Shown: positions 8,036 to 10,572 of the stretch, in pieces
How the letters are laid out: each line of letters opens with the position of its first letter
How positions within the stretch are numbered: the first letter of the stretch is position 1
From: Janibacter endophyticus
Lineage (GTDB): Bacteria; Actinomycetota; Actinomycetes; Actinomycetales; Dermatophilaceae
Assembly (NCBI RefSeq): GCF_016888335.1
Contig: NZ_JAFEJG010000004.1
Coordinates: 248,001-312,000, forward strand
Direction: 5' to 3'
DNA: 64,000 bases
Made by a program: the position numbers and the translations under genes
Notes under the pieces: model-generated
Databases searched by the model: none
What the model saw: only the letters and a program-made list of their open reading frames with translations
What the model was told of the DNA's origin: nothing

Positions 8036-8917
8036 TCACCCGAGCACGGACCACTGCGCCATGACCTTGAGGTCGAGCCCGCACGTCAGCCGACGCGGCT
8101 CGCTGAAGGACCGCGCCACCCGGCGCTCGTAGGTGTGACCGGCAGCCGTGACCCGGACCGTCCACTCCCCCTCCCCGGCCGGTTCGGCGGTGACCGCCTC
8201 GACCTGCGCCAGGCTCACCCCTTGGCCCGCCATGACGTCGTGGACACCCACCTGCTCGGGGGCATCCCAGACCGTCCGGCCGCGCCAGCGGGTAAGGTCG
8301 ACCGCGCCGTCGAGGTGGGCGATGACGACGTCGGGCGCTGAGGTGCCGTCGAGCCGTCCGTACATGGAGCCCTCGGGGAGGATCGCGACGTTGCCGGCGA
8401 AGCGGTCGCCGCCGAGATGCGTTGTCTCCCAGACCGATCCGGGCAGGACGTCGTCGAGGACCCGGGCGACGAGGCGGCCCTCGACGGCGCAGCAGGGGTC
8501 CTTCTTCCCGTGGCAGCAGACGAGGATCACGGGGTCGGTGCACACCTCCGGCGCGGCCGCGCAGAGCTCCTCGAAGCGCTCGGCGAGGGCCACGAGATCG
8601 GCCGGCTCGGACCACTCGTGGCGAGCCACGCGGCCGTTCGTCGAGTCGACGAGGTAGACCGGCCACGGCGCGACGAAGTCGTCGACCCGGCCGTGGGGGC
8701 GGATGAGCTGCAGGCGCGCCTGGACGGCGTCGAGCGCGCGGACGAGCGGTGGTCGCACGTCGAGCACGGGGGGCGTCGTGGCGGCCTTGTCGGTCCACGG
8801 GCCGGGGTGGCCGACGAGCATCCAGCGAGGCGCGGGCACCGCCGTGCCGATCGGCGCGTCAGCACGCTCGGCGGCCGCGATCGAGCACCGCCAGCGGGAG
8901 TCATGGTGCGTGGTCAT
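8036..8917 (-). CDS. Sucrase/ferredoxin-like family protein (thioredoxin-fold [2Fe-2S] type)
   Basis: Product of 293 aa. The diagnostic segment LVCCHGKKDPCCAVEG near residues 135-150 matches the HGxxDxCC motif of the sucrase/ferredoxin-like family. These are thioredoxin-fold proteins, some of which carry a [2Fe-2S] cluster. Further cysteines at the N-terminus (RWRCS) and C-terminus (LTCGLD) could help ligand a cluster. It is the last gene of a minus-strand unit, only 11 nt after the stop of the JmjC/cupin oxygenase. This suggests a redox role next to that Fe(II) enzyme, which is inference. ATG 8917 is the first start that gives the family's usual N-terminus. Confidence 0.8.
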   Translation of the reverse strand: MTTHHDSRWRCSIAAAERADAPIGTAVPAPRWMLVGHPGPWTDKAATTPPVLDVRPPLVRALDAVQARLQLIRPHGRVDDFVAPWPVYLVDSTNGRVARHEWSEPADLVALAERFEELCAAAPEVCTDPVILVCCHGKKDPCCAVEGRLVARVLDDVLPGSVWETTHLGGDRFAGNVAILPEGSMYGRLDGTSAPDVVIAHLDGAVDLTRWRGRTVWDAPEQVGVHDVMAGQGVSLAQVEAVTAEPAGEGEWTVRVTAAGHTYERRVARSFSEPRRLTCGLDLKVMAQWSVLG

Positions 8918-8928
8918 CGCCACCGACC

Positions 8929-10188
8929 CTACGAGGGCACCGAGGGCGAAGGGGTGGCCGGGGGCCTCGGCGTCGCGAGCCCCGCGACGACGAGGCGGCG
9001 GGCGAGATCGGCGCCGATGTCGGCGGCGTCGAGCGAACCATCGGCGAGGAGCCGGACGACCGCGGGCCGATCCGCCTCGGCGACCGTCAGCCGACCGAGC
9101 CGGCTGCGGAGCACGCCGTCGCGGACCTCGGCGCCGAGGTGCTCCCGCAGGTCGATCCGCCACCCGGAGGGATCGGCCTCGAGGGCGGCGAGCGCCTCGA
9201 CGGAGCGGACGGGCGAGACGGGGGCGGCCCGGCCGCTGCGCCCGCGGGCGGAGAGCCGGTCGGCGACGACCTGCTCGTCGAGCTGGTCGAGCGCGGAGCG
9301 GAGCGCGTCACGGACCTCGTCGACGCGCCCGGCGTACGTGGCGGGGTCGGCCAGGTCGACCCCGAGGGGCAGCGAGCGCCGGGACGACACGTCGTCGAGC
9401 AGCCCCGCGCGGAGCGACCCGATGACCTCGTCGAGGACGTGCTCGCCGTGCCAGGTGTGGATGCCGAGGGTGAGGTGGGTGCTCACGCCACCGCGCGCGG
9501 TCGCCGCGTGCAGCCAGCCCCGCGGCAGGTAGAGGACGTCGCCGGGCGCCAGGGTCGCCTCCAGGTGCGGCGCCCGATCGGCTTGTGCCGCAACGGCATC
9601 GGCGCGCTCCCCCCACGGCTGCGAGCGCAGCGGGTGATCGTGGACCGGGGCGTGGATGCGCCAGTGCTTCTCGCCCGAGATCTGCACGACGAAGACGTCG
9701 TGCACGTCGTAGTGGGCAGAGAAGCCGGTGCTCTGCGCCGGGGTGACGTAGGCGTTGGCCTGCACGGGGTGCCCGAGGTCGTCGGAGAGCTCGGCGACGA
9801 GCCGGCGGACCGGCTCCCAGGTCCGGTGCAGCGCCTGGAGCACGATCGTGTGCCCGTCGGCGAAGAGGCGGAGCAGCTCGTCGTCGGCGACCTGGTCGCC
9901 GATCGTCGCGCCGACGCCGGCTGCGCGGGTGAAGGCGCGATCGGGCAGCGTGCGGCCGCCCTTGGCGACCCGGACGAAGGGGACGCGCAGGCCGCGCTGC
10001 GAGAGCAGCTCGTCGACGGCGGCGTTGTCGAGGACGTCGTCGAACGCCGCGCCGTGAGCGGCAGCGGGTCGCTCGGCCGCGCGGACGAGCAGTGGCGCCT
10101 CGCCCCAGCGCTGCGCGAAGGTGTCCCGGTCGGGGACGAGTCGGGCCAGGCCGGTCGGGTGACCGGCCTGGCCCCAGCGTGCGGTCAC
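8929..10188 (-). CDS. JmjC/cupin-4 family Fe(II)/2-oxoglutarate oxygenase (ribosomal-oxygenase-like)
   Basis: Product of 419 aa. The cupin-4/JmjC core has the metal-binding HxD in GFSAHYDVHDVF (His159, Asp161) and the distal His in LYLPRGWLHAA (His227). A dimerisation region follows, then a C-terminal winged-helix-like segment (RPAVVRLLADGSLDAADIG). This order matches the RoxA/YcfD-MINA53 ribosomal oxygenases, which hydroxylate protein side chains. The GTG start at 10188 lies 6 nt after the stop of the Asp/Gly repeat peptide gene, so the two are probably translated together. The peptide may be its substrate, but a ribosomal protein target is equally possible from family knowledge. Confidence 0.85.
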   Translation of the reverse strand: MTARWGQAGHPTGLARLVPDRDTFAQRWGEAPLLVRAAERPAAAHGAAFDDVLDNAAVDELLSQRGLRVPFVRVAKGGRTLPDRAFTRAAGVGATIGDQVADDELLRLFADGHTIVLQALHRTWEPVRRLVAELSDDLGHPVQANAYVTPAQSTGFSAHYDVHDVFVVQISGEKHWRIHAPVHDHPLRSQPWGERADAVAAQADRAPHLEATLAPGDVLYLPRGWLHAATARGGVSTHLTLGIHTWHGEHVLDEVIGSLRAGLLDDVSSRRSLPLGVDLADPATYAGRVDEVRDALRSALDQLDEQVVADRLSARGRSGRAAPVSPVRSVEALAALEADPSGWRIDLREHLGAEVRDGVLRSRLGRLTVAEADRPAVVRLLADGSLDAADIGADLARRLVVAGLATPRPPATPSPSVPS

Positions 10189-10194
10189 GCCCGG

Positions 10195-10572
10195 TCAGAG
10201 ACCGCGCTCGACGGGGGCCGCCCCGCCGCTCGCGGGGTCGGCGCCACCGTCGGCACCACCATCAGCACCCGCGTCGCCGACCGGGCCGGCGCCACCGTCG
10301 GCACCACCGTCGGCACCCGCGTCGCCACCGGCCCCGCCGTCGGCACCACCATCAGCACCCGCGTCGCCACCGGCCCCGCCGTCAGCACCACCGTCCGCGC
10401 CGGCGTCACCGGCCCCGCCGTCAGCACCACCGTCCGCGCCGGCGTCACCGGCGCCACCATCGGCACCGCCGTCCGCGCCGCCATCGGCGCCCGCGTCACC
10501 GTCCGCAGCCGTCGTGGGGACGCCGCCGAGCGCCTCGTCCGTGGGGACCGTCTCGTCGTTGGGGAGAGTCAT
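10195..10572 (-). CDS. Asp/Gly/Ala repeat peptide, candidate substrate of the adjacent oxygenase
   Basis: Product of 125 aa with an acidic N-terminus MTLPNDETVPTDEALGG and then six units that each begin DAGADGGADGGA. The units are spaced 13-17 residues apart, and the tail is Pro/Ala/Gly-rich. There is no signal peptide, Cys, Lys or aromatic residue. ATG 10572 follows AGGCTGACC, a fair ribosome binding site. The N-terminal segment ends in Leu-Gly-Gly, like a double-glycine leader, and the repeat block would be the core. The repeats are also visible in the DNA at about 10240-10500, so copy number may vary. The Asp-rich turns could bind cations. No function is recognised; the peptide-substrate idea comes from its position directly before an Fe(II) oxygenase. 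Confidence 0.7.
   Translation of the reverse strand: MTLPNDETVPTDEALGGVPTTAADGDAGADGGADGGADGGAGDAGADGGADGGAGDAGADGGADGGAGGDAGADGGADGGAGGDAGADGGADGGAGPVGDAGADGGADGGADPASGGAAPVERGL

Follow-up and report, generated by a model that had tools for sequence, protein, structure and literature searches.

The locus described here raises the question why a gene for a JmjC-type oxygenase should lie directly behind a gene for an Asp/Gly/Ala repeat peptide. It is found in a 64,000-nucleotide stretch of the 2.98 Mb genome of Janibacter endophyticus (contig NZ_JAFEJG010000004.1, positions 248,001 to 312,000 of the forward strand), and this whole stretch is called the window below. Chromatin and ribosomes are the settings in which JmjC hydroxylases are best known, and in animals their hydroxylation of Asp and Asn is mostly found in ankyrin repeats. 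A first-pass annotation of the window had described a 125-residue peptide with six DAGADGGADGGA units, an oxygenase gene 6 nucleotides (nt) after it and a Suc_Fer-like gene after a further 11 nt, and this is the arrangement that we find, with all three genes on the minus strand. That the peptide and the JmjC_2 oxygenase belong together across the phylum Actinomycetota is strongly supported by the comparisons given below. The features concerned, in coordinates of the window, are as follows.

10195..10572, minus strand: Asp/Gly/Ala repeat peptide of 125 residues, presumed substrate (precursor) of the oxygenase; from its reading frame, its repeat units and upstream counterparts in relatives
10513..10572, minus strand: leader-like N-terminus of the peptide, the first 20 residues, acidic and ending LGGVPT; counterparts in Janibacter loci L029, L031 and L059
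8929..10188, minus strand: JmjC_2 Fe(II)/2-oxoglutarate oxygenase of 419 residues with a ribosomal-oxygenase fold; from Pfam, conserved residues and a structure model
8932..9186, minus strand: C-terminal domain of the oxygenase, beta strands then helices at the position of the NO66 winged helix, candidate peptide-binding part; from the model
8036..8917, minus strand: Suc_Fer-like protein of 293 residues, presumed redox partner, in which roughly residues 127-217 are modelled as a thioredoxin-like [2Fe-2S] ferredoxin domain; from Pfam and a model

Pairing of the oxygenase with an Asp-rich peptide

A Pfam JmjC_2 search of 296 Actinomycetota genomes was chosen as the phylum sample so that loci would not be selected by their likeness to the window. 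It gave matches in 48 genomes, from which 56 loci were taken, three matches under the family cut-off being left out. Genes scoring above 190 bits with a profile of the window-type oxygenase were assigned to the oxygenase type; this cut was placed after the scores were known, the border scores being 184 and 180 below it and 194 above it. A first pass put 40 loci (39 genomes) above 190 bits and 10 below, with six showing no match, and a recheck that allowed genes running off a contig added L166 (299 bits) to the type and L199 (180 bits) and L192 (19 bits) to the others. The sample thus holds 41 oxygenase-type genes, two of which end at contig ends upstream. An Asp-rich reading at most 700 nt upstream on the same strand was present at all 39 assessable oxygenase-type loci and at none of the 12 other JmjC_2 genes. 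When 36-residue segments were scored for Asp richness, one with a score of at least 4 lay upstream of 38 of 38 oxygenase-type loci, a score attained by 75 of 2399 pieces drawn at random from these loci, and therefore the pairing is above chance; a score of at least 9 was reached at 24 of the 38 and in none of the 2399. The pair occurs in about 13 percent of the sampled genomes (39 of 296, plus genome G343).

Two further sets, which partly share genomes with the phylum sample and with each other, gave the same picture. Among the 80 nearest relatives of the oxygenase in GTDB genomes, 77 have the repeat peptide; in two of the other three the locus is cut by a contig end but shows the last residues of the peptide, and in the third (L063, Arsenicicoccus) the peptide is acidic without clear repeats. 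Among 58 near relatives the oxygenase is patchy, being present in 25, and the peptide lies beside all but one of the 26 oxygenase genes found there (25 of 26), L020 being the miss. The first-pass annotation had proposed that genomes be searched for the pair and had named its absence beside orthologous oxygenases as the result that would count against it; instead the pair was found phylum-wide (39/39) and in the two sets of relatives (77/80 and 25/26).

Peptide sequences and the residue that may be modified

The peptides fall into two main styles. The first is built on DGGADGGA, often alternating with EGPADGGA...HDGGADGGA (for example in Janibacter, Arthrobacter, Streptomyces and Geodermatophilus), and the second is denser, with stretches such as DGDATD, DADGTD and DSTDGTDGDS, and is found mainly outside the class of the window organism and in a few members of its order. 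Rarer forms occur at L022, L165 and L184. Composition was counted on 117 distinct peptides (87 first-style and 30 second-style), the residues after the first 20 being taken as the core. Left out of this set were L020, which has no peptide, L182, L167, L083 and L094, which lie at contig ends, three duplicate sequences, and L089, L168 and L171, where the peptide is present but its frame was not cleanly called; L002 to L019, L027, L028 and L166 are also outside these counts. The genome that carries L020 (G008) has a second copy of the oxygenase gene, L026, with a second-style peptide. In the oxygenase tree the root is uncertain, and other JmjC_2 genes lie on long branches between the two peptide styles, with L162 inside one of them; a single origin of the pairing is therefore neither shown nor excluded by the tree.

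It is the protein sequence of the peptide that is under selection, because identical repeats use different codons and the number of repeats varies. The six units of the window peptide have five DNA spellings and differ from each other at 78 nucleotides over the 15 pairs, all in third codon positions; since the units were picked for identical residues the third-position share is forced, and it is the number of silent changes that is informative. Likewise, 62 frames with at least three DGGADGGA units hold 374 such units, and when the DNA of the units is compared inside each frame 340 are distinct. Variation in repeat number between loci, which the first-pass annotation had suggested looking for, is seen, and in Streptomyces the peptides of 15 loci range in length from 64 to 134 residues. 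A chance reading frame was rejected as an explanation on these grounds, the same residues with different codons and the recurrence across genera; in the window the sequence GGAGG stands six bases before the ATG of the peptide gene.

Only Asp, Gly and Ala are present in all 117 cores, whereas Asn is lacking from 91, His from 30, Glu from 26, Thr from 18, Pro from 12 and Ser from 11. The mean Asp content is 17 percent in the first style and 27 percent in the second, and successive Asp residues are mostly 4 apart in the first and 2 or 3 apart in the second. The 117 peptides contain no Cys and Trp only seven times, in the second style, and are poor in Arg. The proposal of the first-pass annotation that Asp is the target thus gains indirect support, and we infer from the gene order and these compositions that the oxygenase acts on the peptide, with Asp as the target. 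His was considered as a common target and rejected: HDGGA is frequent in the first style, but His is absent from the 30 cores mentioned and from the window peptide, and therefore a His target of the NO66 type cannot be general.

The N-termini differ more than the repeats. An acidic motif usually opens the second-style peptides, LTDEDIETV and LSDDDITT being examples, and an LDDDDMTS-type motif (as in MALDDDDMTS) is found in the first style. The pattern D-[DEAQN]-[DEQ]-[IM] occurs within the first 30 residues of 25 of the 30 second-style and 17 of the 87 first-style peptides, which suggests that the acidic motif may be a recognition sequence that has been lost or changed in part of the first style. 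The leader ending Leu-Gly-Gly to which the first-pass annotation drew attention is not a general feature. An LGG or IGG ending is common to the window peptide and to Janibacter L029, L031 and L059 and is absent from L003 in G002, of the same genus, and from most other genera, many lineages having one of the acidic motifs in place of this leader-like stretch. A double-glycine export leader was rejected on account of this confinement to some Janibacter and because a search of the window genome with the C39 peptidase family (PF03412) gave no match at E ≤ 0.001. At the other end, an RG[LIV] C-terminus (VERGL, AERGI, TERGL and others) is shared by 11 of the 117 distinct peptides from several genera, among them that of the window (10195-10215).

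A first-style peptide query against the 58 relatives gave 28 matches at E ≤ 0.01 in 18 genomes. Of these matches 23 adjoin an oxygenase gene, including 10 of the 11 with E < 1e-6, and the five that do not are two in G002, one in G028, which is an arginine-rich frame, one in G041 (E 0.007) and one in G051 (E 0.009). No clear stand-alone peptide was seen with this single query, which is not a census because it fails to pick up either the peptide of the window itself or those of the second style. Two larger proteins of G002 (L196 and L197) contain DGGADGGA-like inserts, which may be chance linkers or further substrates.

The oxygenase, the Suc_Fer-like protein and the neighbourhood

The oxygenase matches Pfam JmjC_2 with E 4.8e-27 (94.4 bits against a cut-off of 22), and its nearest named relative, in J. 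melonis, is 63 percent identical. The HxD...H triad for Fe(II), which had been reported as complete, is indeed so: it consists of H159, D161 and H227, and these residues, like N145, Y147 and K174, do not vary in an alignment of 120 rows, in which a few loci appear twice. K174 we take to be the 2-oxoglutarate Lys by comparison with MINA53. A profile of the oxygenase searched against PDB sequences finds NO66 (E 9.5e-33), MINA53, YcfD and FIH, and the structure model, which has a predicted local distance difference test score (pLDDT) of 91.7, aligns with NO66 along residues 2-412 (Z 27.6, 381 residues aligned, root-mean-square deviation (rmsd) 5.7). The JmjC, dimerisation and winged-helix domains, to use the domain names of the ribosomal oxygenases (PMC6006756), are matched over this full length. 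In the C-terminal domain the strands precede the helices, close to the order required of a RiPP recognition element (RRE; RiPP, ribosomally synthesised and post-translationally modified peptide) in PMC12710340, and the winged helix of the ribosomal oxygenases has the same position. An NCBIfam search with this domain gave no match. From the model, the C-terminal domain may perhaps bind the peptide.

The third protein matches Pfam Suc_Fer-like (E 3.5e-17, 63.5 bits against a cut-off of 34.9), and its model (pLDDT 93.1) contains a thioredoxin-like ferredoxin domain that superposes on the Aquifex [2Fe-2S] ferredoxin (Z 12.4, 87 residues aligned, rmsd 1.9), which bears out the earlier description of it as a [2Fe-2S]-type protein. 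It resembles Apd1 and Aim32 of the Suc_Fer family in this modelled fold and in the C-x8-C spacing of C134 and C143, which are invariant in 42 rows. Aim32 differs in having, according to PMC8482512, the motif CX8CXnHX3H, the second His of which is Asp here in 105 of 113 rows, Cys in six and unread in two. Since the motif is HX3D in nearly all rows, we keep the protein apart from the Apd1/Aim32-like bis-His [2Fe-2S] proteins.

In 63 diverse loci, just two reading frames of at least 110 residues recur widely, those of the oxygenase (63) and the Suc_Fer-like protein (52); further frequent frames lie opposite these two genes on the other strand, and the rest occur in at most five loci. No further conserved neighbour was thus found in these loci at E ≤ 1e-15, a search which shorter genes could escape. 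Of 40 oxygenase-type loci, 34 have the Suc_Fer-like gene nearby (the contig of L166 ends too early), as do none of 10 other JmjC_2 loci, and it is found in 61 of the 80 nearest relatives. Among the 58 relatives it accompanies the oxygenase in 23 of 25 genomes, both exceptions being incomplete genomes, as against 17 of the 33 that lack the oxygenase (Fisher p 0.0013, uncorrected for kinship). Its membership of the cassette, as first annotated, thus holds for most copies and not for every one, and 19 loci without an adjacent Suc_Fer-like gene show no consistent same-strand replacement. On the strength of its model the ferredoxin is presumed to be the redox partner of the oxygenase. In the window the three genes are flanked upstream by a divergent saccharopine-dehydrogenase-like gene and downstream by a convergent metallophosphoesterase-like gene.

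Some JmjC_2 genes outside the oxygenase type also have short peptides nearby. The short frames just before L139 (G275) and L142 (G226) both end in SDGND and differ in their upstream parts, and they have the look of a further family of precursors linked to JmjC genes. L170 (G337) is preceded, at a distance of about 600 nt, by a 35-residue RiPP-like peptide with a double glycine, MSDIQKNAPETASEEPGLEIEDEELEALSGGLEVI. On a Streptomyces clavuligerus plasmid (NZ_CP065235.1) a cupin gene (L195:3935-5092), whose product shares 38 percent identity with the window oxygenase over residues 49-298, is preceded by a 48-residue peptide (L195:3697-3843) that begins with an acidic, leader-like stretch and contains the near-repeat IADNDPSDP/IADPDPFDP, and genes for an S9 peptidase and an ABC transporter are near it. 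JmjC_2 proteins may thus have become associated with peptides earlier, and more broadly, than the Asp repeats alone would indicate.

The proposed cassette and its alternatives

We consider it probable that the locus is a small RiPP-like cassette in which a JmjC_2 oxygenase repeatedly oxidises Asp, probably by beta-hydroxylation. The repeat peptide would be the substrate of the oxygenase translated directly after it. The enzyme would bind the acidic N-terminal recognition stretch, perhaps through its winged-helix-like C-terminal domain, and would then pass from one Asp-Gly/Ala repeat to the next and oxidise many Asp side chains in turn, most likely by hydroxylation at the beta carbon. A [2Fe-2S] electron carrier, the Suc_Fer-like protein, would keep the iron of the oxygenase reduced or would otherwise serve the product. 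The result would be poly-hydroxyaspartate in the form of a flexible peptide, able to accommodate hard cations, Fe(III) or Ca(II) for instance, and probably intracellular, since neither a transporter nor a protease gene recurs alongside. FIH, a JmjC enzyme that hydroxylates Asn and Asp in ankyrin repeats, is a parallel for the proposed chemistry. Cation binding by the modified peptide is a speculation by analogy: beta-hydroxyaspartate is a siderophore ligand, for example in the potashchelins, which makes a hard-metal ligand plausible. The fullest form of the proposal, that these are phylum-wide undescribed peptides in which JmjC-made beta-hydroxyaspartate repeats act as an intracellular hard-metal ligand while the [2Fe-2S] partner manages iron redox, is offered tentatively, and we would sooner doubt it than rely on it.

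Several observations weigh against the proposed cassette. The genomes are related and hence the pairing counts are not independent trials. L020 has an oxygenase of the window type without a recognisable Asp peptide, L162 falls under the score cut yet stands among the second-style oxygenases in the tree and has no Asp peptide, and the peptides of L150 and L063 are acidic but lack clear repeats. The acidic N-terminal pattern is absent from 70 of the 87 first-style peptides. Since some other JmjC_2 genes (L139, L142 and L170) are preceded by peptides of different kinds, the mere presence of a peptide upstream is no sign of an Asp target. Neither a protease nor a transporter gene recurs alongside in the 63 loci. 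The Suc_Fer-like gene is absent from six of the 40 loci and present in the 17 relatives without the oxygenase, and therefore the ferredoxin is a partner with other uses and not an obligate member. Finally, a 19-base IdeR/DmdR-like iron box is no better matched in the 300 nt upstream of 116 peptides than in the control of one base-shuffle per upstream region. This is evidence against iron control, and regulation by iron was rejected.

The alternative that survives best, though we regard it as unlikely, is that the peptide is indeed the substrate and the chemistry at Asp is another one, namely desaturation, cross-linking, or breakdown of the side chain or backbone. Such chemistry has precedents, since 2-oxoglutarate enzymes are reported to carry out macrocyclisation in RiPP pathways (Xia 2025, judging by its title) and Asp is converted to aminomalonate by SmaO/SmaX in a graspetide pathway (PMC13097080, accessible part). 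As the peptides have no Cys and hardly any Trp, a link would have to use Asp, Gly, Ala or less constant residues. Against this alternative, the closest solved folds, NO66, MINA53, YcfD and FIH, are hydroxylases. It is still less likely that the enzyme is a ribosomal oxygenase of the usual kind, whose target is a ribosomal protein and for which the acidic peptide is a regulator, mimic or decoy. Its fold and sequence are nearest to the ribosomal oxygenases, and the window genome has a single JmjC_2 match, both of which fit that explanation. On the other hand, an Asp peptide is missing from all 12 of the other JmjC_2 genes sampled, the oxygenase is patchy among the relatives (25 of 58), and an inhibitor or mimic has no obvious need of a multitude of near-identical units in varying number. 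That the unmodified peptide is an acidic disordered metal or ion buffer, merely co-regulated with an oxygenase and a ferredoxin that do another job, would agree with its high Asp content but is very improbable, the oxygenase being behind the peptide in nearly all copies as its sole constant partner and no clear stand-alone peptide having come up with the one first-style query, to which not all peptides are visible.

Several described systems resemble the cassette in part. The ribosomal oxygenases NO66, MINA53 and YcfD share with the window oxygenase the JmjC_2 family, the full-length modelled fold and the Fe(II)/2-oxoglutarate residues, but the latter is encoded with an Asp-rich, Arg-poor peptide, and His, the target of NO66 and MINA53, is missing from the 30 cores. 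Action of a JmjC enzyme on a RiPP precursor is established by BipG, which hydroxylates ornithine in the biphenomycin precursor (PMC12707348). BipG is thus also a JmjC-type oxygenase acting on a ribosomal peptide, but its target is ornithine and it belongs to a multi-enzyme antibiotic cluster with transporter and protease, whereas here there is a repeat peptide and no such recurring genes. The corallotide system CorA/CorC likewise has a large repeat precursor in which each motif is oxidised by a 2-oxoglutarate enzyme; according to PMC13097080, it differs in needing a graspetide synthetase and in hydroxylating Lys after cyclisation, while no ligase is among the recurring neighbours here. Of the two enzymes that make beta-hydroxyaspartate on ribosomal peptides, PesHI and SmaO, the former is a multinuclear iron enzyme (MNIO) and not a JmjC protein. 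The modification is described for PesHI in PMC13060819 and for SmaO in PMC13097080, and the accessible parts of these sources mention no Asp-repeat substrate for either. According to PMC12710340, some eukaryotic RRE-JmjC proteins have homologues among bacterial JmjC proteins (PF08007) that occur in RiPP-like contexts; Asp repeats are not described in the passage concerned.

Motif and keyword searches of open papers found no description of the cassette, although an account elsewhere is possible. The exact strings DGGADGGA, EGPADGGA and PADGGA were not found in open papers, GADGGADG was found only in an unrelated pig-breeding paper, and the main text of the decRiPPter paper (PMC7794033) contains neither JmjC nor cupin. 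The pairing points to a widespread kind of modified ribosomal peptide that has apparently not been described before, and the best reading is that of a known enzyme fold with an unusual substrate in a RiPP-like system. Functions of Suc_Fer ferredoxins are described as not well understood (PMC8482512), and the cassette might explain a conserved job for them. What the gene order ties together, in about 13 percent of the sampled genomes, is a JmjC enzyme and a simple, mostly repeated Asp peptide. If the proposal is true, it would make multiple hydroxylation of Asp testable with two or three small genes, would define a class of RiPP without a linked protease or transporter, and would provide a genetically encoded counterpart of the hydroxyaspartate siderophores.

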